Shown here: positions 4,535-38,495 of the stretch, in pieces
How positions within the stretch are numbered: the first letter of the stretch is position 1
Layout: the number at the start of each line of letters is the position of its first letter
Source: a virus
Direction: 5' to 3' (one strand)
Length of the DNA: 41,408 nucleotides
Virus record (IMG/VR): IMGVR_UViG_3300044615_001394
Coordinates: 1 to 41,408 of that record
Position numbers and translations under genes: made by a program
The notes under the pieces: generated by a model
Seen by the model: the letters and a program-made list of their open reading frames with translations, nothing else
The model's database searches: none
Told to the model about the DNA's origin: nothing

Positions 4535-5155
4535 ATGCCTACTTCTGCCAAATCTTTAGCTTCGTTCACTGATAAAGACAAGGCTCGTTTTTACTCTCGC
4601 ATCGGCCCGCCTGATTGCAATGGATGCACTCATTGGCTTTTATCACGAAACCCAAAGGGGTATGGTGTGATGTTTTGCCAAGAGCAATTAACACATCGTA
4701 TTGCGTGGATTTTGAAGAACGGGGAGATTCCAGCGGGCAAAATTATCTGCCACCATTGCGATACGACATCGTGCTGTAACGTGGACCATATGTACGTTGG
4801 CACTCACAAAGACAATGCGCGTGACAAGGTTGTGCGTGGTCGATGCAATGCAGCGACAGGCCAAAGGCACGGCAGTAAAACAAAGCCTGACCGCGTCCCA
4901 CGGGGAGCGAAAAGCGGGCGTTATACCAAGCCAGAGCGCACGGCTAGAGGCGACCGTCATGGTAGTAAAACAAAACCCGATTCCATACCAAAGGGCGAGC
5001 GTAATGGCCGTGCCATTGTGACCCCTGAGCAAGTGGTGGCTATCAGGGCAATGAAAGGCAGCCTATCCCAGGCTGAGATTGGTAAGCTCTATGGTCTATG
5101 CCAGACGACTATCAGCGCCATCATGCGCCGCGTGATCTGGCCTGACGTGGCATAG
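4535..5155 (+). CDS. free-standing HNH homing endonuclease, paralogue 1
   Basis: This 206-residue protein has an N-terminal segment ending ARFYSRI, then the zinc-type HNH core (THRIAW, ICHHCDTTSCC, HMYVGTHKDN), three tandem 15-residue modules of the type RHGSKTKPDxxPRG, and a C-terminal helix-turn-helix (SQAEIGKLYGLCQTTISAI). It probably nicks or cuts DNA to spread itself. It is inserted head-to-head against TerL and lacks the hairpin leader seen at its four paralogues. No other in-frame ATG is available upstream of the core. Confidence 0.85.
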   Translation: MPTSAKSLASFTDKDKARFYSRIGPPDCNGCTHWLLSRNPKGYGVMFCQEQLTHRIAWILKNGEIPAGKIICHHCDTTSCCNVDHMYVGTHKDNARDKVVRGRCNAATGQRHGSKTKPDRVPRGAKSGRYTKPERTARGDRHGSKTKPDSIPKGERNGRAIVTPEQVVAIRAMKGSLSQAEIGKLYGLCQTTISAIMRRVIWPDVA

Positions 5156-5232: not shown

Positions 5233-6447
5233 TTAGGCTTGCTTGGCAGGCTTTGGCGGGCGGTTATCAACCAACGTCCCGCAGTGCTTGGCGTCGATCA
5301 GAATGTTGGCGGAGGCGATGACGTTGGCTAGGTGGCTGATAGGCTGGCCTGCATGGGCTGAGGTTTCAGCGTCGTTGTCCTCACCGTCAAGGTACAGGGC
5401 GATGTGGCGCATCATGGCGGAAATGTAGGTGGTTACTTCTACCTTGTTTTCCCGCCAGTTATACGGCCCATACTTAGCCGCCCCCGTGGCATGAGCCCAG
5501 GCCGCCTGCCTCAGAGCCTCTGGCGGCAGCAGGGCTAGCGGTGGCTTGGCGGCCCCGGCTTGGCCTTTGGGGTCGGTGCCAGCTTTCATGCTGGCGTGTG
5601 GGTTTTTACCTTCAAAAACAAGCGGATTGCCGCTAAATATCGGGTTGTTGGCCTGCGAAACGGCCTCCTTGGCCTTGGCCTCTGCCAAGACTGCCTGCCA
5701 GTCGCCTTGGGCAGGCTCGCTGGCTGGCAGGGGGCGGCGGGTGCGGCAGTGGGCGGTATTTTCATAAGTTGGTCCAAACCAATCGTGTACTGAATTACCA
5801 CCAACTTCCCAACCGCCTGATCTCTTAATCTCATCACCTCTCCCCCATCGCTCGCCAAATAACAGCGGCCTACAGCCCTCTGGCAGCATCTCCGCCGTCC
5901 AGTCCCGCCTGTGCCAAGCCTGCCCGGCGGGCGGGGCTGGCAGGCTCCAGGGCTGGGGCTCTGGCTCGGATGGCCTGACTTGTGGCAGTATAGCGTATTT
6001 CTCTTCATCCGTTGGCGTTCTCACCCATTCGACTTGGATTAGGGTAGCACCATGCACTTCGCTGGCTTTCTGAATGTACTTACCATCGCCGCTTTCAAAC
6101 GTCACAAATGCCAACGGCGGCAAATCCTTCGGCTGGGCGGCCTGCTTTGATGGGCTGGCGGGCGGCTTGATGGGCAGGGCGTAGGCGTATTTCCTCCGTT
6201 CCCCATCGCTTACCTTGCTGCCTTCGCTTCTGATAGAGCCATACCACTTTAGCTCTCCATATTCGATATTGTAAATCATCGGGACTGTTGGCAGGCAGTC
6301 TAGACGGGCGTCATCGGCGGGCACGATGGCCCAGCCGGGCGGTGGGGGCGGGATGTCTGCCAAGATAGCCTCGGCTTTGACTGGCTCGGCAGGCTGGGGC
6401 CAGGAGGCTTGGCCGGGCTTGGGCATGGTGATGGGGTCGGATGTCAT
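5233..6447 (-). CDS. dATP/dGTP diphosphohydrolase-domain protein (MazZ-like, DUF5664)
   Basis: This 404-residue protein ends in a domain of about 100 residues containing AAKYGPYNWRENKV, MMRHIALYLDGEDND and ISHLANVIASANILID, the pattern of phage dATP/dGTP diphosphohydrolase N-domain proteins (PF18909). These remove pyrophosphate from dATP/dGTP or alter the nucleotide pool. The first 300 residues are Pro/Trp-rich and unrecognised. The ATG at 6447 is preferred over longer versions because the extension reads into the neighbouring gene in a shadow frame. No PurZ was found, so 2-aminoadenine DNA is not supported. Confidence 0.75.
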   Translation of the reverse strand: MTSDPITMPKPGQASWPQPAEPVKAEAILADIPPPPPGWAIVPADDARLDCLPTVPMIYNIEYGELKWYGSIRSEGSKVSDGERRKYAYALPIKPPASPSKQAAQPKDLPPLAFVTFESGDGKYIQKASEVHGATLIQVEWVRTPTDEEKYAILPQVRPSEPEPQPWSLPAPPAGQAWHRRDWTAEMLPEGCRPLLFGERWGRGDEIKRSGGWEVGGNSVHDWFGPTYENTAHCRTRRPLPASEPAQGDWQAVLAEAKAKEAVSQANNPIFSGNPLVFEGKNPHASMKAGTDPKGQAGAAKPPLALLPPEALRQAAWAHATGAAKYGPYNWRENKVEVTTYISAMMRHIALYLDGEDNDAETSAHAGQPISHLANVIASANILIDAKHCGTLVDNRPPKPAKQA

Positions 6448-6466
6448 AGGCCAAAAGATAGCACAC

Positions 6467-7306
6467 TCACGCGCCCGTTTCAAGCCCCATTGGGGTGGCG
6501 GCCAGCACAAAGAAGCCCGGCTTGTATGGGTGCGGCCCATACTCAGCCAAGGCCTTGAACCGCTCGGCAAAGGCTGCTTGGAACTTGGCGACGATCTCGG
6601 GCGAAAGCTCGCCGTCGAACTCCATGCCGTACACGCCCTTCTTGGCTAGCTCGGCCTGAATAAGCCCGGCGTGTTCCTCCAGTCCGGCCTCAATCGTGGC
6701 CCAGGCCAAGGCCGGGTCGTCTGGCAGGGCCTCGGGCTCTGACTGGGCGGCCATGACCAGGGGGCGGGCTCGTTCGTGCTGGCCTATGACGGCCTGGAAG
6801 ACAGGGGCCGGGTGGCGCTTGGCGTGGTCGTGGCAGAAGGCCAAGATGCGGCGGGTAAGCTGGGGGATGCGTGCGCCTTCGCCTTTGTCCCAGAGCAGGC
6901 GGGAGAACGGGCAGGCCGCGTAAACCGGATGCTCCTCAAAGCCCTCGTTGGCGGCGTAGCGTGGCAAGGGCCGAGTCCATGCGGCGGCCAGGGGGCTAGG
7001 CATGTCGATAGCGATCACGGGGATAGCCGGGCCGTCGGGCTCCACGGGCACGGCTAGGAGCAGGGCAGGGATTCGGCCATCAAGACAGGCGCGGGCGAAG
7101 TCGTCCTCCACGATGGTCATCTTAGCCTCGGCCCTCTCGCCAGCCAATGGCAAGGCCAGTTTTCGTGGGATGGCAAAGAAGGCGGCAGGCTTGCCCGTCT
7201 TGGCCCGGCACTGGCGGGCCATGTAGGCTAGGACTTCGAGCAGGGGCGTTTCGGGGGGCAGGGGGACGAACTCTTCAACGGGCTGGGTGTCTGGTGTGTC
7301 GGGCAT
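6467..7306 (-). CDS. hypothetical protein
   Basis: This 279-residue protein has no recognised family. The middle contains hydrophobic beta-like segments (IPALLLAVPVEPDGPAIPVIAIDMP). The start ATG at 7306 follows CCACT, and the coding start carries the CCGACAC word common to many genes here. It ends 19 bp before the diphosphohydrolase start, so the two are likely co-transcribed, downstream of the terminator at 7346-7384. Confidence 0.65.
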   Translation of the reverse strand: MPDTPDTQPVEEFVPLPPETPLLEVLAYMARQCRAKTGKPAAFFAIPRKLALPLAGERAEAKMTIVEDDFARACLDGRIPALLLAVPVEPDGPAIPVIAIDMPSPLAAAWTRPLPRYAANEGFEEHPVYAACPFSRLLWDKGEGARIPQLTRRILAFCHDHAKRHPAPVFQAVIGQHERARPLVMAAQSEPEALPDDPALAWATIEAGLEEHAGLIQAELAKKGVYGMEFDGELSPEIVAKFQAAFAERFKALAEYGPHPYKPGFFVLAATPMGLETGA

Positions 7307-12404: not shown

Positions 12405-12475
12405 TTGCGATGTACTTGGATAGTGTTTAAATGAACGCGCCCGCCACCTGTAATCAGCAGGATGCGGGCGCTAAC
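12405..12475 (+). promoter_or_regulatory. HNH expression cassette A: promoter plus 5' hairpin
   Basis: -35 TTGCGA (12405-12410), 16-bp spacer, -10 TTAAAT (12427-12432). The predicted mRNA begins with a hairpin: P1 GCGCCCGC/GCGGGCGC (12437-12444, 12464-12471), internal loop, P2 CCTG/CAGG with a 7-nt loop. CTAAC follows (12471-12475), with the ATG at 12494. Three other HNH genes have the same layout. Confidence 0.7.
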
Positions 12476-12493
12476 TTTATCCATAATACCTCT

Positions 12494-13021
12494 ATGAACA
12501 AAGCTACCTCAAGCCTGCCATTTGCCACAAAAGAAATCAAGCTGACTCCCGCTGAAATGACGCGATTTTGGAGCAAGGTCGATAAAAACGGCCCGATACA
12601 GCCACACATGGAAAGCTCTTGTTGGGTGTGGATGGGTTGTAAACGAGGTAAATACGGGGCATTCAGCTTAGATCGTAAATTAGTCAGCTCCCACCGAGTT
12701 GCTCTGACTCTAACATGCGGACCTCTACCAGAACGTGTTTTTGTTTTACATAAATGTGACGCTCCGTCATGTTGTCGCCCTGATCATCTGTTTTTAGGGG
12801 ATGCCGCAGATAATATGCGTGATATGGCGTCTAAAGGCAGAAAGGTTGTAGCCCTTGGCGAGTCTCACGGCATTTCTAAACTTACTGAGCCTGATATAAT
12901 CGAAATCCGCGCCCTTTATGCTGCTGGAGGCATTAGTTTAATGAAACTAAGTCGTCGCTTTGGTGTTCAGCATAGCGTTATTCGCCGAATTGTCCGGCGC
13001 GAGCTTTGGAAACACGTTTAA
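12494..13021 (+). CDS. free-standing HNH homing endonuclease, paralogue 2
   Basis: This 175-residue protein has the family core SSHRVALT, VLHKCDAPSCC, PDHLFLGDAADNMRDM and a C-terminal HTH (LMKLSRRFGVQHSVIRRIV). It has no 15-residue linker module: the HNH core passes almost directly to SKLT. The start ATG at 12494 lies 18 bp after CTAAC; an upstream ATG falls inside the -10/hairpin and was not used. Its stop overlaps the stop of the convergent minus gene. Confidence 0.85.
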   Translation: MNKATSSLPFATKEIKLTPAEMTRFWSKVDKNGPIQPHMESSCWVWMGCKRGKYGAFSLDRKLVSSHRVALTLTCGPLPERVFVLHKCDAPSCCRPDHLFLGDAADNMRDMASKGRKVVALGESHGISKLTEPDIIEIRALYAAGGISLMKLSRRFGVQHSVIRRIVRRELWKHV

Positions 13022-14261: not shown

Positions 14262-14301
14262 AAAAAGCGTAAAAGCTAGATTAATGAGGGCGCTAGACTA
14301 C

Positions 14302-17717: not shown

Positions 17718-19733
17718 TTACAGCCTGATCTGATTTACCTCGGCTGGCACGCCGTCGATGTCGCGGTTATCAAGGACAATGACCTGATCCACAAGCCCGG
17801 CCTCCACGGCGGCGGCCAGATTCGCCAAGACGGCAGGCTTGCGGCTTGGATCAACAACGCCAAATTCGTCCACAATAACGAGCTTAAATCCTTGGTGATT
17901 GGCAGCCAAGGCGGCCTGGATGGCGGCGGTGGCAATGCGCTTGTCGCTGCCTGAGAAGCTGTCAAAAGGCACCCACACACTGCCCTCGTATCTGCCGAGC
18001 TGCAAATCATGCACGGTAAGCGGGGCGGCGAACAGCCCTTCCGTGAACGTCTGGCACACGTCCAACACGCCCCGCAAAGCGTGGTCCATAATGGCCTTCA
18101 CCCCGGCATCCCAAGCCAGCCGGGCCGCCTTGAAGGCCGCCTCGTCCTTCTCCAGCCCGGCCAGCCGTTCCTCGGCCTGCCGCCGGGTGGACTGCCGGGC
18201 CTCGGCCTGGGCCTGGGCGGCTTGGCGGGCCTCGGCGGTAGCGAGGGCACCACGGGCGGCGTCAAGTTGCTCGGAGAGTTCGGTGACGTTTTCGGCAATA
18301 CGGTCGGCGCGGAGGCTTGCCACAAGGCGGCCTTCGTCGGCCTTGGCGTAGGCGTCCCAAGCCCTAGCTCGGCGGGCCTCGGCGGTGAGGGCGTCGGCGG
18401 ACTCGGTGAGGTCGGCGAAAGCGTCTTGTAGGCCTTGGATGTCGGCCTCTGTGATGCCTGCGCCTTGGTCGGGGGCTGGGGCGATGTGGTCGAGGGTGGC
18501 CTGATTGGCGCGGAGCACGGCTTCGGAGGCGCGGGTGACGGCGGCGGCTTGGCGAATAAGGCTGTGAAGAGTTTGGAGGCGGTCGGCATTTTGCTTCATC
18601 GCTTCCTCCCATCCTGCAACGTCTGACTCTTCGGCTGCTTCGCGGTTCCAATGCACTGCCAAAGCTCCGCAACAAGGGCAAGTGCCTTTGCCGGTAAGCT
18701 CGTCGTTGTTGGCGGCATTGAGCTTGGTTTGCAGGCGGTCAGACTGAATCAGCAACTCGTCAATGTCAGCCTTGAACTTTGCCTCGTCCAAAGGCTCCCA
18801 CCCGTCCGCCACCACCTGATAGGCGGCCTGGGCCTCTGCCAGCTTGGCCTCAAGCCTGCCGTGCTCGGCCTGCCAGCGGTCCCATGCCTGCCGGTCTGCC
18901 TGGGCCTGGGCAAGGTCGGCCTGGGCGGTGCGGAGCTTGGCTTGCACGTCGGCTAACTGGGCCTCGAATGCTTCCGCTGTGCCGTTGGGGCGCTCGCCTG
19001 GGGGCTGGACGGGGGCCGGGCGGCTGGCAATGGCGTTGGCCTCGCCGGTCAGGGTGGCAATCTCGCGCTCTAGGCGGGAGACGTTGGCGCGGAGTTCGGA
19101 GATGGGCGGGCCGGTGTGGACGGGCGCGGAGGTGTCGAGGATCTCCATGCCTGCCAGGGTGCCGCGCATGTCCTTCATGCTGGCGGTGTAGCCGGTGGCG
19201 GTGGCCTTGGCGATGTCTTCCACGCTGGCTAGCCACTCCTGCACATCGTCAAACGCCTTGAGTGTGCCGGTGAGCTTTTCCAGCCCTGTCTCCGCCAGCA
19301 AGGCGCGGAGCTTGGCGGGCACGTCGTCGCCGCAGGCTCCAAGGATCATGCCTGCCCGGACTTTGGGCGAGGCGGCCAAGAAAGGCTCAAGGTCGAGCAT
19401 GACGGGGGGCAGGAGGTCGGCAGGGGCAGGGCTTTTGGCCTCGCCTTTAACCGACTTGCCTGAGCGGGTGAGGCTGCGGTCGTAGGTCTTGCCGCCAATG
19501 TCGAGGCTGGCCCCCATGCGCAGGCCGGAGCCGAGGGCGTCCATGATGCCACCGTTGGTCTTGGGCAGGCCGGGCACTTTGCCGGAGAGGACGAAGGACA
19601 AGGCGTTGGCGATGGTGGTTTTGCCCGCGCCATTGGCTCCGATAACGAGATTCGTGCCGGGTTTGAAGTCGTGGCGGCGGGTGCGGCCAGCGAAGGAGTC
19701 GAGAGAGGTGGAGGAGATGTATGTATTTTTCAT
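17718..19733 (-). CDS. SbcC/Rad50-like SMC-type ATPase
   Basis: This 671-residue protein has Walker A GANGAGKT (32-39), long helical coiled-coil arms (about 210-340 and 380-560), a zinc-hook CPCC (352-355), ABC signature FSGSDKR and Walker B KLVIVDEF near the C-terminus. Rad50-type proteins hold DNA ends for a nuclease partner. No SbcD/Mre11-like gene was seen in the window, so it may use a host partner or act as a recombination ATPase alone. Confidence 0.85.
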   Translation of the reverse strand: MKNTYISSTSLDSFAGRTRRHDFKPGTNLVIGANGAGKTTIANALSFVLSGKVPGLPKTNGGIMDALGSGLRMGASLDIGGKTYDRSLTRSGKSVKGEAKSPAPADLLPPVMLDLEPFLAASPKVRAGMILGACGDDVPAKLRALLAETGLEKLTGTLKAFDDVQEWLASVEDIAKATATGYTASMKDMRGTLAGMEILDTSAPVHTGPPISELRANVSRLEREIATLTGEANAIASRPAPVQPPGERPNGTAEAFEAQLADVQAKLRTAQADLAQAQADRQAWDRWQAEHGRLEAKLAEAQAAYQVVADGWEPLDEAKFKADIDELLIQSDRLQTKLNAANNDELTGKGTCPCCGALAVHWNREAAEESDVAGWEEAMKQNADRLQTLHSLIRQAAAVTRASEAVLRANQATLDHIAPAPDQGAGITEADIQGLQDAFADLTESADALTAEARRARAWDAYAKADEGRLVASLRADRIAENVTELSEQLDAARGALATAEARQAAQAQAEARQSTRRQAEERLAGLEKDEAAFKAARLAWDAGVKAIMDHALRGVLDVCQTFTEGLFAAPLTVHDLQLGRYEGSVWVPFDSFSGSDKRIATAAIQAALAANHQGFKLVIVDEFGVVDPSRKPAVLANLAAAVEAGLVDQVIVLDNRDIDGVPAEVNQIRL

Positions 19734-21775: not shown

Positions 21776-21845
21776 TTGAGGATTGGCGGTAATGTGTTAT
21801 TATGAACACGCCGCCGGAAGCTAGACACTTCACGACGGCGCTAAC
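21776..21845 (+). promoter_or_regulatory. HNH expression cassette B: promoter plus 5' hairpin
   Basis: -35 TTGAGG (21776-21781), 16-bp spacer, -10 TATTAT (21798-21803). The hairpin has P1 CGCCG/CGGCG (21809-21813, 21836-21840), internal loop, and P2 GAAG/CTTC with a 7-nt loop. CTAAC is at 21841-21845 and the ATG at 21865. Confidence 0.7.
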
Positions 21846-21864: not shown

Positions 21865-22449
21865 ATGAACGAAGCTACTACAACCGTGCCACTGGCACAT
21901 GACGAAATCAACCCCACACCCGCAGATGAGGCGAGATTCTGGGCGAAGGTCAATAGAAATGGCCCAACAATGCCGCACATGGATAGCCCGTGCTGGATAT
22001 GGACGGCGGGAACACAGGGTGGTTATGGGCGAGCTTGGGCAGGCGGAAAACACAACCTTGCTCACAGGTTAGCGTGGCTCTTCACAAATGGCCCCATACC
22101 GCGAGATGGTCATAATGGAATCTGCGTATTGCATAAGTGCGACACGCCAGCCTGCGTAAATCCTCATCATCTTTTCATTGGCACGAATGCTGACAACGTA
22201 CGCGACATGCTGAACAAGGGGCGAGGAAATAAAGCTTGTGGAGATCGGCATAGCTCACGTACTAAGCCTGAATGCGTTCCGCGTGGCGAGTCGGCAAGCA
22301 ATGTTAAACTCACCGCTGCTGATGTTTTAGAGATCCGCAGACTCTACGCTAACGGAATGTCACAAAGTCGCCTTACCTCGCTGTTCGGCGTGACACAAGC
22401 AGCCATCAGCCTTATTGTCCTACGCAGAAACTGGAAACACCTCCCATGA
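21865..22449 (+). CDS. free-standing HNH homing endonuclease, paralogue 3
   Basis: This 194-residue protein has the core LAHRLAWLF, CVLHKCDTPACVNPHHLFIG, NADNVRDMLNKGR, one 15-residue module (DRHSSRTKPECVPRG) and an HTH (SQSRLTSLFGVTQAAISLIV). It sits between the OB-like gene and rusA; its TGA overlaps the rusA ATG. The start is 20 bp after CTAAC. An ATG at 21802 lies in the -10 and was rejected. Confidence 0.85.
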   Translation: MNEATTTVPLAHDEINPTPADEARFWAKVNRNGPTMPHMDSPCWIWTAGTQGGYGRAWAGGKHNLAHRLAWLFTNGPIPRDGHNGICVLHKCDTPACVNPHHLFIGTNADNVRDMLNKGRGNKACGDRHSSRTKPECVPRGESASNVKLTAADVLEIRRLYANGMSQSRLTSLFGVTQAAISLIVLRRNWKHLP

Positions 22450-22820
22450 CCAGCCTGACCATCACTGTCCCCATTCCTTCACCCAAACTTGCCCATAACG
22501 GAAGAGTTTATTGGAGGCAGCGGGCCGCCCTCGTCAAAGCCTGCCGGGCCTCGTCCTGCCTGCTAGCCAAGGAGGCCTTGGCTGGCAAGCCTGCGCCGGG
22601 CTGGGGCAAGGCCAGCGTGAAGGTGGTGGCGTATTTCCCGACTCTGAGTTTTCCCGATCCCATGAACTTGCTGGACAGGTGCAAGGCGGTGCTGGATGGT
22701 TTCGAGGATGCCAAGATTATCTTGGATGACAAAGACCTCTGGCCGGAGCGCCCCGAGATGCACAAGGACAAGGACCGGCCACGGCTGGAAGTTACAATCA
22801 CGCCGGAGTTGCGCGATTAG
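22446..22820 (+). CDS. rusA: RusA-like Holliday-junction resolvase
   Basis: This 124-residue protein matches RusA in length and motifs: PIPSPKLAHNGR near the N-terminus and the acidic site FPDPMNLLDRCKAVLDGFED followed by DDKDLW (about residues 69-99). RusA dimers cut four-way DNA junctions. It probably resolves recombination or replication intermediates before packaging. It overlaps the HNH gene by 4 bp. Confidence 0.85.
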   Translation: MTSLTITVPIPSPKLAHNGRVYWRQRAALVKACRASSCLLAKEALAGKPAPGWGKASVKVVAYFPTLSFPDPMNLLDRCKAVLDGFEDAKIILDDKDLWPERPEMHKDKDRPRLEVTITPELRD

Positions 22821-23920: not shown

Positions 23921-24448
23921 ATGAAGCACTCACCAGAATACATGCAGAAATTGCTACAAGACTGCGAACGCGAGCTAGCCGCCAGCCAAGCAGCTTACGC
24001 CACGGCCCGCAGCCAGCTTGTCGGCTTTGAGGCCGCTAACGCGGGGCTCCGAGCTGATAATGATGAACTTCTGGCCCGGCTCGAAGAGGCCCGCACGTCG
24101 CACCTTCACGCAGCCGCCAGAGATGTGCAGACAATCCAGCAGCAAGCGGTGGAGCTTGCCAAGATCAAACAGGAGCGTGTAGAACTATGGCAAGAAATTG
24201 CGGCAGTGAAGCATGGGGACTCGGGTTTCGCGGTCTTGCAGGAACTCCACGACAAGGAGCTAGCCAAGTGGCAGGCCTTGGCGGAGGGGCTGGCAAGGGC
24301 GCTAACTGATTGCAAAAATCGAGCGATGGATAAAAGCATCGAAACTAACGCTGACGACCATGCCAAAGGCTGTGTTGATGACATCTGGGAATGGTCTGAG
24401 GCCGCTCTCGCCGCCTACGAGGCAGCCAAATCCGCAAACCATGACTAA
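23921..24448 (+). CDS. hypothetical coiled-coil protein
   Basis: This 175-residue protein is predicted coiled coil for most of its length (RELAASQAAYATARSQLVGF, then LLARLEEARTSH onward). The leader CTCCTAAACACCT precedes the ATG. A structural or accessory role in replication is possible, and no family was recognised. Confidence 0.6.
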   Translation: MKHSPEYMQKLLQDCERELAASQAAYATARSQLVGFEAANAGLRADNDELLARLEEARTSHLHAAARDVQTIQQQAVELAKIKQERVELWQEIAAVKHGDSGFAVLQELHDKELAKWQALAEGLARALTDCKNRAMDKSIETNADDHAKGCVDDIWEWSEAALAAYEAAKSANHD

Positions 24449-25083: not shown

Positions 25084-25246
25084 GCTTGGCCTGCCGCTGG
25101 CCTTATCGGGCTGGTGGCGAAGTGGGTTCTAACTGAAACTAGAGCCTTTGTTGGAAGCGAATTATCAAATCCCTCCCCTCTTTGTGAGCCGCATTTAGTG
25201 TGTGCCGTGTTTCAGCACAGAGAGCGAGGAGGGGCCTTCTAACATT

Positions 25247-25732
25247 ATGGCTAAAAGCTACTCCGAAAAATTACGCGATCCACGTTGGCAAAAAAAACGC
25301 CTGAAAGTCATGGAGCGCGATGGGTTTCTTTGCACTCACTGCAAAATTGAGGGCGATACCCTCAATGTGCATCATTCGTATTATAGGTCTGGCCGAGATC
25401 CTTGGGACTATCCCGACGAATCGTTGATTACGGTTTGTGAGAAGTGCCACACCAAGATTGAAGCTATGCGTGTGAGCTTTGGGATTGCTACAGCCTCTTC
25501 AGTTAAGCGGTGTGCGCTGTTCCATGAGTTGCTTTGTTCAGAAAAGCTCATTTCTCTTGTTTCTGAACTTGATGATTGGAATGATGCCTTGATGCGTATT
25601 CGCTCTGAATCGGCCAAAGGTTCGGATGTGGCTAATCTTCGCCTTTCCACTCTTAGCTTAGTTCGTTTATTGATGGGAACGCTGGATGCAGCAGAGGCCA
25701 AATCTTTAGAACAGGGACTTGAACTTGAATGA
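25247..25732 (+). CDS. HNH-type protein of the 'DPRWQKKRLKVMERD' family
   Basis: This 161-residue protein begins SYSEKLRDPRWQKKRLKVME, then CTHCKIEGDTLNVHHSYY and CEKCHTKIEA, a common phage HNH family with a zinc knuckle and HH pair. It has no linker modules or HTH. A GC-rich inverted repeat and CTAACATT precede the start. Its stop overlaps the initiator gene by 4 bp, so the two are coupled. Confidence 0.75.
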   Translation: MAKSYSEKLRDPRWQKKRLKVMERDGFLCTHCKIEGDTLNVHHSYYRSGRDPWDYPDESLITVCEKCHTKIEAMRVSFGIATASSVKRCALFHELLCSEKLISLVSELDDWNDALMRIRSESAKGSDVANLRLSTLSLVRLLMGTLDAAEAKSLEQGLELE

Positions 25733-33831: not shown

Positions 33832-33899
33832 TTGCGTTGGCTGTGCTGTTGGCTAGAATGTCGCGCCGATTGGAGGTAGAAACTCCGCACGGCGCTAAC
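33832..33899 (+). promoter_or_regulatory. HNH expression cassette C: promoter plus 5' hairpin
   Basis: -35 TTGCGT (33832-33837), 16-bp spacer, -10 TAGAAT (33854-33859). The hairpin has P1 GCGCCG/CGGCGC (33863-33868, 33890-33895), internal loop, and P2 GGAG/CTCC with a 7-nt loop. CTAAC is at 33895-33899 and the ATG at 33918. Confidence 0.7.
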
Positions 33900-33917: not shown

Positions 33918-34502
33918 ATGATTGAAGCTACTCAAACAGTGCCGTGCACACGCAAAGAAATCAAGCTCACTACCACCGACGAGGCGAGATTTTGGAGCAA
34001 GATCAACAAAGCTGGCCCCACAATGCCGCACATGGAGAGTCCGTGCTGGCTCTGGACAGCTTATAAAGATCAGCACGGATATGGGCAATTTCATTTGCGG
34101 GGACGCATTCGCAAACCTCACCAAATTGCATGGACTATTGCCAATGGTCAGATCCAGAGGAATGACAGCCACCACGGGACTTGCGTCTGCCATCGGTGCG
34201 ATAATCCGGCCTGCTGCCGCGCTGATCATCTTTTTATCGGCACACAGGCAGATAATATGCAAGACAAGACCACTAAAGGAAGACAAACGCGTGGAGCCAA
34301 TCACTATGCACGCCTTAACCCTGAATTAATTGCACGCGGGGCTAAAAGAGGTCATGCCAAACTTACTGACGCCAAGGTTATTGAAATCCGCGCCCGATAT
34401 GCAGCTGGCGGTATTAGCCAGAGCCGCCTTGCTGCACAGTTTGGAGTGGTTCAACCAGTCATCTGTGCGATTATTAACCGTAAAACTTGGACGCACATCT
34501 AG
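33918..34502 (+). CDS. free-standing HNH homing endonuclease, paralogue 4
   Basis: This 194-residue protein has the core KPHQIAWTI, CVCHRCDNPACCRADHLFIG, QADNMQDKTTKGR, one 15-residue module (ANHYARLNPELIARG) and an HTH (SQSRLAAQFGVVQPVICAI). It is divergent from the adaptor gene, with the shared intergenic region holding its promoter and hairpin. Longer starts run through the promoter and were rejected. Confidence 0.85.
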   Translation: MIEATQTVPCTRKEIKLTTTDEARFWSKINKAGPTMPHMESPCWLWTAYKDQHGYGQFHLRGRIRKPHQIAWTIANGQIQRNDSHHGTCVCHRCDNPACCRADHLFIGTQADNMQDKTTKGRQTRGANHYARLNPELIARGAKRGHAKLTDAKVIEIRARYAAGGISQSRLAAQFGVVQPVICAIINRKTWTHI

Positions 34503-34778: not shown

Positions 34779-34790
34779 GGCGGGAAGCGG

Positions 34791-35474
34791 TTAACTGACA
34801 AGGAACACCCGCCCGCCGTTCGTGGCGAACTGGCCCGGCAGGCTCTTGGCCGTGGCGCGCACCTGGGCTGGCGTCAGGCCGGTGGCCTTGGCTGCCTCGG
34901 CTACTTTGAGGCCGCGCTGGCTGACGGCGGAGGCTAGGAGGCGGGCGGCCTCTGCGGGGCTGGGAGAGTTGCCGTCTGCCCCGCTCGCGAGTTCGGGGCT
35001 TGCTGTGTTGTGCGACGGCGGCACCGGGCCACTGGGGGCGATTGTTTCAGGGACGCCTGAGAATGGCGGGTTCCCATTTTTGTCGTAAAGGGCGGCCTCG
35101 ACATCGCCCACCGTGAGCTTGGCTTTGTTGGCAATGGCCTTCATCTGGGCCTCCACCTCATCCAACGTCTCCACGCCAAAGCGCGTGCGCAGTTCATGGG
35201 CAAGGCAGGCCTCCGCCGTCGGGTGCAGGCTGCCGTCCTCGGCCTCAAAGTCCACGTCTGGCACAGGCCGCATGGGCTGGTAGGCGGCCAAGTACGGCCC
35301 GGCTGGCTTGTTCTGGTCGTCCCACTCGGCGCGGGTCAAGATGCGGATGGGGTAGCCTTTGCCTTTGCGCACGTCGGAGCGGGCGCGGACGGGCAGGGTT
35401 AGGCCGTTGCTGGCGGCGATGGGGAAGGCTTGGCCGGGGTGTTGCGGGAATGTTATCTGCCAACAAGTTCTCAT
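34791..35474 (-). CDS. hypothetical protein with a C-terminal winged-helix-like domain
   Basis: This 227-residue protein starts MRTCWQITFPQH; the N-terminal half is unrecognised. The C-terminal 55 residues form a helix-turn-helix/wing pattern ending FATNGGRVFLVS. Being inside the late block between adaptor and capsid genes is unusual for a regulator, so it may act late. The ATG at 35474 follows a CCAGACATCAGACACC leader. Confidence 0.55.
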   Translation of the reverse strand: MRTCWQITFPQHPGQAFPIAASNGLTLPVRARSDVRKGKGYPIRILTRAEWDDQNKPAGPYLAAYQPMRPVPDVDFEAEDGSLHPTAEACLAHELRTRFGVETLDEVEAQMKAIANKAKLTVGDVEAALYDKNGNPPFSGVPETIAPSGPVPPSHNTASPELASGADGNSPSPAEAARLLASAVSQRGLKVAEAAKATGLTPAQVRATAKSLPGQFATNGGRVFLVS

Positions 35475-35535: not shown

Positions 35536-35604
35536 TTGATGGCTTGTTGGCATCTGTTACAATACGACGCCGGACACCTTTTGCGAGGTAATCCGGCGTC
35601 TAAC
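35536..35604 (+). promoter_or_regulatory. HNH expression cassette D: promoter plus 5' hairpin
   Basis: -35 TTGATG (35536-35541), 16-bp spacer, -10 TACAAT (35558-35563). The hairpin has P1 GACGCCGGA/TCCGGCGTC (35566-35574, 35592-35600), internal loop, and P2 ACCT/AGGT with a 6-nt loop. CTAAC is at 35600-35604 and the ATG at 35622. Confidence 0.75.
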
Positions 35605-35621
35605 CCCACCCATATTGTGCT

Positions 35622-36260
35622 ATGAATGAAGCGTTACCCATACAAGCAGACATCTGTCCCGAAGTCAACTTTACAGACAAAGAGCGAAATCATTTTTGGT
35701 CTAAAGTTCAGAAATCTAATGACTGTTGGCTATGGCAAGGAGGCAAACCTGGAAGAAAATACGGCCAGTATTTTTTACGCCAAAAGCGTGTGGGAACTCA
35801 TCGGGTAGCTTGGATGATGTCTCGGAATCGAGAAATACCTCCAGGTATGTTTATCTGCCACCACTGCGATAATCCTCAGTGCGTACGCCCAGACCATTTA
35901 TTTCTTGGCTCAATCCAGGATAATTCCGATGATAAATGCAGAAAAGGAAGGCAGGCTAAAGGTGATAGTCAAGGTTTGCGCAAACATCCAGGGGCGGCTG
36001 CACGCGGATTACGGCACGGCTGGCACACCCACCCTGAAAGCGTTCCTCGCGGCGATAATCACCACTCAAGAAAACGTCCTGAAAGGATGGCTAGAGGTGT
36101 GAGGCATGGATTAGCCAAGTTCACCAATGATGACATAATAGAAATCAGGCGATTACGCAAAGACGGGATGCTGTTACGCCTTATCGCTGAACGATTCAAA
36201 TGCAGCCGTCCATGTATAGGCTTCATTATTAAAGGCGCAACTTGGGGTCATGTGATCTAA
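35622..36260 (+). CDS. free-standing HNH homing endonuclease, paralogue 5
   Basis: This 212-residue protein has the core GTHRVAWMM, ICHHCDNPQCVRPDHLFLG, IQDNSDDKCRKGR, three 15-residue modules (for example LRHGWHTHPESVPRG and DNHHSRKRPERMARG) and a C-terminal HTH (LLRLIAERFKCSRPCIGFII). It lies antiparallel to the late genes, with the terminator at 36266-36301 just beyond its stop. Confidence 0.85.
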   Translation: MNEALPIQADICPEVNFTDKERNHFWSKVQKSNDCWLWQGGKPGRKYGQYFLRQKRVGTHRVAWMMSRNREIPPGMFICHHCDNPQCVRPDHLFLGSIQDNSDDKCRKGRQAKGDSQGLRKHPGAAARGLRHGWHTHPESVPRGDNHHSRKRPERMARGVRHGLAKFTNDDIIEIRRLRKDGMLLRLIAERFKCSRPCIGFIIKGATWGHVI

Positions 36261-36950: not shown

Positions 36951-38495
36951 TTAGCTCACCTCCGGCATACCGGGGGCGTTCCAGGCACCGTAAACGACGA
37001 TGTAGCCGTTTTTGATGAGGGCTGCGTTTTTGTAGGCGGTGGCACCCCAGACCATCTGGACACCGATACCGAAACGGTTGGTGTAGTCGTTCTCCTGGGT
37101 GACACGCTGGCCCATGGCGGTTGAGGCCTTGCCGTTGACCGTGCCGTAGCCGCAATACACGGCGTTGTTGCCGAGGAAGTAGCCGCAGACGTATGGCTGG
37201 CCCTTGCTGTTGACTGGGATCATCAGCGAGCCCACGGGGATGACGCCCTCAGTGAGGTAGCCACTCGTCCAAGGAGCAGTGCCCCAAGTGATGGTGGAGC
37301 CAGTGAGCGTGGTTTCATAGTCGCCGGAGGCTGTGGAGCCAAGGCGGGTCAGGTCGCTTCCGCCCACATCGCCGAGGGTGAAACCGTCGGAGGTCGTGTA
37401 GTGGAAAAAGCTGTATTTGCCAGCATCCGCGCCAGAACCATTGATCACCATGAGGTACTTGTCAGTGACCGTGGCGGCGATGAAAGTCTGCTCAAACGCC
37501 GTGAACGGAGCGCCGGGCCAGTAGCGGAAGTAGTCGTTAGCTGTCTTCGCAATGGCGTTGGTCGTAAGCACCGTGGAGCCGTTAAAGCCGCCGCCTTTGA
37601 GGACGGTAAGCGCCGTGGAGGTGCCTTTGGCTGGGATGGCTTCGCCGAGGTAGGCGCGGGGAGCGCAGAACGCACCCTGAGCAGCATCGGCGGCGGTGTT
37701 GGAGACTGCCCAATTGTTGAGCATGACGCCATCATACTCTGGCAGGTTGCCTGCGAAGAGGTAGTTGGTGGGGCCGCGTGTGCCAGCAGTGGCGAGCAGG
37801 CTTTCCCAAGTCGAGTTTTCGCGGAGGCCCTGAAACAGGTAGTCGTTGCCCTGGAAGAAGTACTTCAGGATGCGCTGGCCGTTGGGGCCACGGGCGATCT
37901 CGATTTCCTGCATCTTGATGCCGTTTGCCATGATCTTCGCTTGGGAGATCGTGGCTTTGGTGACGACATCAGTCGAGGTAAGGGCGTTGATGCTCGCCTT
38001 GTTGCCAGCATAGAGCGTGTTGTACGTCTCAAGGCTGCCAAGCATGACGGCTTCGATACAGTCGCACTTAAGGCGCTGCACCCATTCGTTGAGGCCACGG
38101 CGGGCCGATTGGTCGAACGTGGTGCCGATGAATGTCAGGTCTTTAGTCGTGACGGTTTCAGCGACGGCGTGACGGTGCAGGCCGATAGTCAGCGTAAACT
38201 GGCTGTACTTGCGCACTTCTTCCGCACCAACAAGGTTGGTGTTACCCTGGACGCCTTTGCCGCCGAGGCCAGCTTCGGAGCTGAACACGATGGTGTTGCC
38301 GCGTACTTTGGAGGTGTCGAGCACTTCTTTGACAGGCTTGACAGAGCCAAGGCCGCCCATGAGTTCGGAGAACGGGTTGTAACGCTCGTTGTCGAAAGCA
38401 ATGCTCGACACCCAGAGAATCTGGCGGGCGTAGGTGGGGGACTGCGCAACAAGCTCAGCGACTGTCTGCGCGTTAATTTCTTCGTATGAGGCCAT
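36951..38495 (-). CDS. major capsid protein (DUF4043/N4-gp56-like)
   Basis: This 514-residue protein has an N-terminal helix-rich region, then the family pattern VRGNTIVFSSEAGLGGKGVQ, EEVRKYSQFTLTIGLHRHAV and DQSARRGLNEWVQRL, the E-loop and P-domain strands of an HK97-type capsid of the N4-gp56/DUF4043 group. The C-terminal part is longer and beta-rich. It is preceded by the scaffold gene and a structured leader (38496-38606). Confidence 0.8.
   Translation of the reverse strand: MASYEEINAQTVAELVAQSPTYARQILWVSSIAFDNERYNPFSELMGGLGSVKPVKEVLDTSKVRGNTIVFSSEAGLGGKGVQGNTNLVGAEEVRKYSQFTLTIGLHRHAVAETVTTKDLTFIGTTFDQSARRGLNEWVQRLKCDCIEAVMLGSLETYNTLYAGNKASINALTSTDVVTKATISQAKIMANGIKMQEIEIARGPNGQRILKYFFQGNDYLFQGLRENSTWESLLATAGTRGPTNYLFAGNLPEYDGVMLNNWAVSNTAADAAQGAFCAPRAYLGEAIPAKGTSTALTVLKGGGFNGSTVLTTNAIAKTANDYFRYWPGAPFTAFEQTFIAATVTDKYLMVINGSGADAGKYSFFHYTTSDGFTLGDVGGSDLTRLGSTASGDYETTLTGSTITWGTAPWTSGYLTEGVIPVGSLMIPVNSKGQPYVCGYFLGNNAVYCGYGTVNGKASTAMGQRVTQENDYTNRFGIGVQMVWGATAYKNAALIKNGYIVVYGAWNAPGMPEVS

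Follow-up and report, generated by a model that had tools for sequence, protein, structure and literature searches.

The ompA leader is an example of a stabilising 5′ secondary structure. Structures of this type stabilise mRNA, since RppH and RNase E both require a single-stranded 5′ end (PMC3997798), and the described cases are individual host or engineered mRNAs with a stem-loop at or near the transcript 5′ end. Phage homing endonuclease genes that have a promoter of their own and a hairpin in the leader include the T-even genes I-TevI, I-TevII, I-TevIII and segB, as well as Aeh1 mobE; in early transcripts the hairpin hides the Shine-Dalgarno (SD) sequence, while late RNAs lack the length needed to form it (PMC2988022). 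The same source describes a very stable hairpin with a free ribosome site upstream of the endonuclease gene seg43(25) of Aeromonas phage 25. That gene is a single segD-like example with its RBS directly at the stem, and the passage on it presents no mobile family with covariation (PMC2988022).

The cassette described here is a variant among the phage HNH endonuclease genes that are free-standing and preceded by a leader hairpin. Unlike the T-even genes, it has its hairpin right at the predicted +1 of its own transcript, carries no SD and leaves its start codon unhidden. In contrast to the individual stabilised mRNAs, the leader is repeated in a mobile family, with an invariant clamp and tail. 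We give an even chance to the reading, a function we infer, that it is a 5′-terminal element that protects or insulates the mRNA within a self-contained mobile HNH (PF13392) homing cassette.

The window, meaning the whole stretch of DNA analysed, is a 41.4-kb record of an uncultured virus of bacteria whose other genes encode a DnaB helicase, a RusA-like resolvase, a UvrD helicase and the capsid. PF13392 (HNH_3) is present in five window genes, all above the Pfam cut-off of 24.8 bits, and the cassette precedes four of the five. These four, named S1 to S4 in coordinate order and all on the plus strand, have their ATG at 12494, 21865, 33918 and 35622. S1 encodes an endonuclease of 175 aa (12494..13021; PF13392 E 3.5e-10, scanned as ORF 12431-13021; phrog_1872), S2 and S3 encode 194 aa each (21865..22449, and 33918..34502 with PF13392/PF05551), and S4 encodes 212 aa (35622..36260); the S3 and S4 genes are antisense to their flanking genes. 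The fifth HNH_3 gene (4535..5155, plus strand) provides an internal contrast, as the promoter-hairpin cassette was looked for there and is absent. A sixth HNH-type gene, of a different family (25202-25732; phrog_119, weak PF01844), gave no match to the leader covariance model.

The order of elements is a sigma70-like promoter, a two-storey hairpin, CTAAC and the ATG. Promoters were scored with a sigma70 weight matrix (PWM), and the percentages that follow are the share of random window positions scoring as well. S1 has the −35 TTGCGA (12405-12410) and the −10 TTAAAT (12427-12432; 0.9%), S2 has TTGAGG (21776) and TATTAT (21798; 21776..21803; 0.37%), S3 has TTGCGT (33832) and TAGAAT (33854; 33832..33859; 0.65%), and S4 has TTGATG (35536) and TACAAT (35558; 35536..35563; 0.23%). 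A 16-bp spacer is the PWM-best choice in all four. The −10 ends 4-5 nt before the CGCC that forms the hairpin base, so the predicted +1 falls on that base and the stem would lie within a few nucleotides of the transcript 5′ end. When the cassettes of other phages are included, this distance is 4-5 nt in nearly all and 6 nt in one (L364), and the spacer is 16 bp except in two cassettes with 17.

The S1 hairpin (GCGCCCGC..CCTG/CAGG..GCGGGCGC, 12437-12471) is followed by TAAC (ending at 12475), with a fold z-score against dinucleotide shuffles of −5.3 and a covariance model (CM) score of 39.4 bits. The corresponding values are about −2.4 (−2.35) and 50.0 bits for S2 (P2 GAAG/CTTC, then CTAAC; 21809..21845), the weakest fold of the four, −3.3 and 50.7 bits for S3 (P2 GGAG/CTCC, then TAAC; 33863..33899), and −4.4 and 33 bits for S4 (P2 ACCT/AGGT, then TAAC; 35566..35604). 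From CTAAC to the ATG there are 17-19 nt, and from CGCC to the ATG 56 nt in S1 and S2 and 54 nt in S3 and S4. The initial annotation had placed this same layout at all four loci, with a TTG-type −35 and exactly 16 bp, about 17-20 nt between CTAAC and ATG, and a P2 that changes completely yet pairs; the four layouts were confirmed at those coordinates, the stems and P2 being as described. In most cassettes CATA (CATG in L370) also occurs 12 nt before the ATG, 6-7 nt ahead of the TATG/CATG of the start codon; this CATA-N6/7-TATG arrangement is possibly a weak 4-bp mini-stem or a sequence motif, and is too weak to build on.

No Shine-Dalgarno sequence was found in the cassette leaders. C/A-rich, SD-less starts are common among the genes of this phage, so the missing SD is not special to the cassette. 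Examples such as TCTCACTCTCACCACA-ATG occur at 458-1051, 1544-2107, 17718-19733 and 36951-38495, all on the minus strand and including the capsid gene, and the sequences suggest a host that is not reliant on SD pairing.

T4-style timing, in which long transcripts have their ribosome landing site hidden by the hairpin and short ones have it free, is known for I-TevI, I-TevII, I-TevIII, segB and mobE (PMC2988022), and in several copies of the present cassette the start region is computed to be somewhat less open in readthrough RNA. The hairpin, though, neither includes nor hides an RBS or the start codon. The computed accessibility of the ATG region is the same with and without it (0.59-0.82 in each case), a result that argues against occlusion of translation, and an SD that could be hidden is absent. 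Nor is there a late promoter that would give short, hairpin-free transcripts; with the −10 only 4-5 nt upstream of the hairpin, both transcripts carry it. Since the computed openness of the start is unaltered and the SD is missing, the mode of action differs from that of the hairpins of T4 endonuclease genes, and we judge such timing to be very improbable.

All 11 distinct hairpins collected from the window and other phages have the same outer CGCC/GGCG pairs and the same YTAA tail (11/11), and only the inner P1, P2 and the loop vary; the apical parts of the four window hairpins are each different. The covariation score is 0.392, against 0.091 ± 0.031 in shuffles, with none of 500 shuffles reaching it, and falls to 0.093 or less when the pairings are slid. 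The underlying alignment misaligns the S4-type P2, an error that works against the result; the shuffle control leaves relatedness in, and the slid control and single cases weigh more. The best such case is the comparison of the S2 and L364 leaders, which are identical at 44 of 44 positions outside the 15-nt apical stem-loop and at 2 of 15 inside it, and which both pair (chance pairing of such apical segments is 6-11% each). Another is the homologue at the S4 site (L366), where an outer pair is A-U in place of the window's G-C, a compensated change. Relatives thus retain the fold even where stretches of the sequence that forms it have been exchanged completely. The initial annotation's proposal of structure kept despite sequence change is upheld by the covariation present in this larger homologue set and by the whole apical swaps, and its placement of the hairpin at the predicted 5′ end of the transcript is upheld as well, while its statement that the stems drift but pair holds for the inner P1, P2 and loop and not for the invariant CGCC/GGCG base and YTAA tail.

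The leader is a previously undescribed RNA feature: Rfam gave no match at the gathering threshold and only two sub-threshold chance matches, and a limited search of the open-access literature returned no description of it. HEARO RNA and the omega RNA of IsrB/IscB are long guide-type RNAs next to an HNH-domain mobile gene; the present cassette differs in its hairpin of about 35 nt, its HNH_3 endonucleases and its lack of an Rfam match. Three other identities were rejected on sequence grounds, namely an intrinsic terminator (there is no U-tract, and what comes after the stem is CTAAC and C/A-rich leader sequence), an integron attC-like site (the TAAC tail has no pairing partner) and a hairpin that is itself translated (S1 and S2 alone have the ATG at the −10 in frame with the gene).

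Relatives were gathered by pattern searches, protein searches and a capsid search. The cassette is also found in contigs G001, G002, G004, G005, G007, G008, G010, G012 and G017, as well as in G009, which has almost nothing else in common with the window; in total the 11 hairpins occupy about 8 insertion sites. Between S3 and L365, which comes from a phage that is otherwise almost unshared, the leader is 89% and the protein 48% identical. A covariance model built from the 11 hairpins matched related contigs at E ≤ 4e-5 exclusively before HNH genes. These matches are the model's own training set or near copies, and they consequently show absence elsewhere in these phages rather than independent discovery. 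A strict two-gap scan of the viral collection yielded 30 stretches, with cassette folds only upstream of HNH genes, and the completed scans of the viral collection and of 84,980 species' genomes gave no further true members. Several candidates were set aside: the first pattern scan was mostly chance, among the matches listed; the sole match in the 84,980 genomes, at an antiporter-like gene, was chance; the chance copy of GGCGCTAAC at 24298 (one further exact copy) lacks the cassette hairpin; and L224 (20.6 bits) was picked by the pattern itself, in a record without an HNH match.

The HNH genes are inserted between genes and are missing at the same place in relatives. The S1 site is empty in L389, L391 and L395, the S2 site in L392, the S3 site in L344, L353 and L383, and the site of the L363 cassette in L383; for the L370 cassette the empty site is the window itself (14283-14299), and at the S4 site a relative (G003) has about 270 nt of other DNA instead. 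Inserts are intergenic and of both orientations, their ends coincide with the HNH stop or lie no more than a few tens of nucleotides from it, and at the empty sites promoter, leader and HNH gene were inserted together. These sites, along with the same cassette in a different phage, agree with the earlier proposal that the leader travels with the endonuclease. L364 and L367 have different preceding genes and an identical 50 nt upstream of the hairpin, which indicates that the promoter is usually inside the insert. In the L370 cassette the −35 seems, from its sequence, to lie in the resident upstream gene, in which case the promoter would not always be part of the inserted unit. The S2 HNH stop overlaps the ATG of the RusA-like resolvase gene (22446-22820; phrog_34), and because the insert abuts and overlaps this start codon, the cassette promoter probably now drives that gene. 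The empty relative L392 has a promoter-like TTGCAA-17-TACATT a few nucleotides before the RusA-like ATG, and the S2 insert may have replaced the promoter of this gene. Compared with window positions 34785-34804, L345 has an additional 1.3 kb or so (about 5584-6933) without an HNH profile match, which is another insertion in this mosaic region.

In a DNA-level role, the palindrome would serve homing or insertion as a nick site, recombination anchor or extruded hairpin. G-U pairs number 8 of 123, and a DNA-level palindrome is therefore formally compatible with the data; furthermore, cassettes that otherwise diverge are most alike in the leader and the first 150 nt or so of the ORF, and S2/L361 and L364/L367 resemble ORF replacement behind a fixed 5′ module. 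A DNA role, on the other hand, needs no fixed distance to promoter and ATG, the hairpin is not shared by the empty sites, and at several sites the insert extends tens of nucleotides upstream of it. We consider a DNA-level role improbable.

An identity profile of eight site-independent cassettes with shuffled baselines shows where constraint lies. Mean identity is at baseline from −100 to −50 upstream (0.464; shuffled 0.471), 0.555 in the promoter stretch (baseline 0.509) and 0.673 in the leader (baseline 0.513), which is the best conserved segment. Across the ORF it declines from 0.65 to 0.54, reaching the shuffled baseline at ORF positions 351-540, the C-terminal third of the proteins. Per-position conservation begins at the CGCC, and the leader is 54-56 nt long in all eight. 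Mere descent, that is, a leader copied with its gene and kept through recent common ancestry, would fit the restriction of all members to one phage group and one other phage, and the 80-89% identity of several leaders. It is highly unlikely given that the leader is conserved above the coding sequence with the upstream region at baseline, and that apical parts are replaced by compensatory or wholesale changes with pairing kept.

The main rival to end protection arises from the constant sequence of clamp and tail: the hairpin base and YTAAC could be a binding site for a trans-acting protein, either a phage or host RNA-binding protein or a DNA-acting repressor, that times or limits endonuclease expression, with the apical stem-loop as a spacer or second specificity element. 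We regard this as possible but doubtful. The CGCC/GGCG and YTAA are invariant in sequence and not just in pairing, like a recognised motif; T4 I-TevI is documented to autorepress at an operator overlapping its own promoter (PMC2988022); and the ends of the HNH proteins are helix-turn-helix-like (HTH_38, E 1.3e-4, below the Pfam cut-off). Against this, the motif is constant and the C-terminal third of the protein is not, which makes it unlikely that the protein binds its own leader through this part; conservation starts at +1 rather than around the −10, and no candidate regulator emerged from the analysis.

Under the preferred explanation, 5′-end protection, the unit would comprise a sigma70-type promoter, a 54-56-nt SD-less leader and the endonuclease gene up to its stop codon. 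As such a unit lands intergenically in either orientation, it has to carry along the signals for its expression. The two-storey stem-loop would open the leader at the predicted +1 and most likely act at the RNA level, where the G+C clamp CGCC/GGCG, by pairing the 5′ end, would shield the message from 5′-end-dependent decay of the pyrophosphohydrolase/RNase E type, by analogy with the stabilised mRNAs above. The hairpin may at the same time insulate the open, C/A-rich ribosome landing region, resulting in an equally stable message at whatever insertion site. For a putative homing gene that may land in either orientation, a stable message independent of its surroundings would plausibly be of benefit. 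Pure end protection leaves unexplained the invariant YTAA(C) tail, the clamp sequence beyond its pairing, and the differing apical stem-loop of each window copy.

A broad sample of about 157 HNH genes includes 9 that are preceded by a −10 and, 2-7 nt later, a strong hairpin; among 1173 other genes there are 28 (p = 0.024). Since the related group contributes one of the nine (L145), the independent support is weaker, and the enrichment in unrelated phages is modest. The isolated HNH genes at L167 (2300-2393), L500 (about 1750-1824) and L177 (about 2390-2459) also combine a −10 with a strong hairpin where transcription is predicted to start, and in L167 CTAACC comes after the hairpin. Three HNH leaders on unrelated contigs (L147, L153, L158) share a second signature, GAG...CTC-TGRYCAC, just after a −10-like element, and this is suggestive of a wider pattern. 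In ten cultured-phage HNH loci, most genes lie inside operons without a separate leader. We tentatively propose, at well under an even chance, a recurrent class of leader RNAs for phage homing endonucleases that arose independently in several lineages, a portable expression or regulation tag moving with the HNH_3 gene. Such a class would have a promoter and a 5′-terminal two-storey hairpin whose basal clamp is invariant and whose apical stem-loop can be exchanged, together with a single-stranded tail that is conserved.

A mobile endonuclease gene needs to be expressed at any landing place without harm to the phage. The way these inserts have evolved suggests that the RNA leader, and not the protein, is the most constrained part of the cassette; this RNA is compact (~56 nt) and defined in sequence, and compensatory variants of it occur naturally. 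Should the second, unrelated signature prove true, homing cassettes of phages would generally include a portable 5′ leader, a component so far overlooked.
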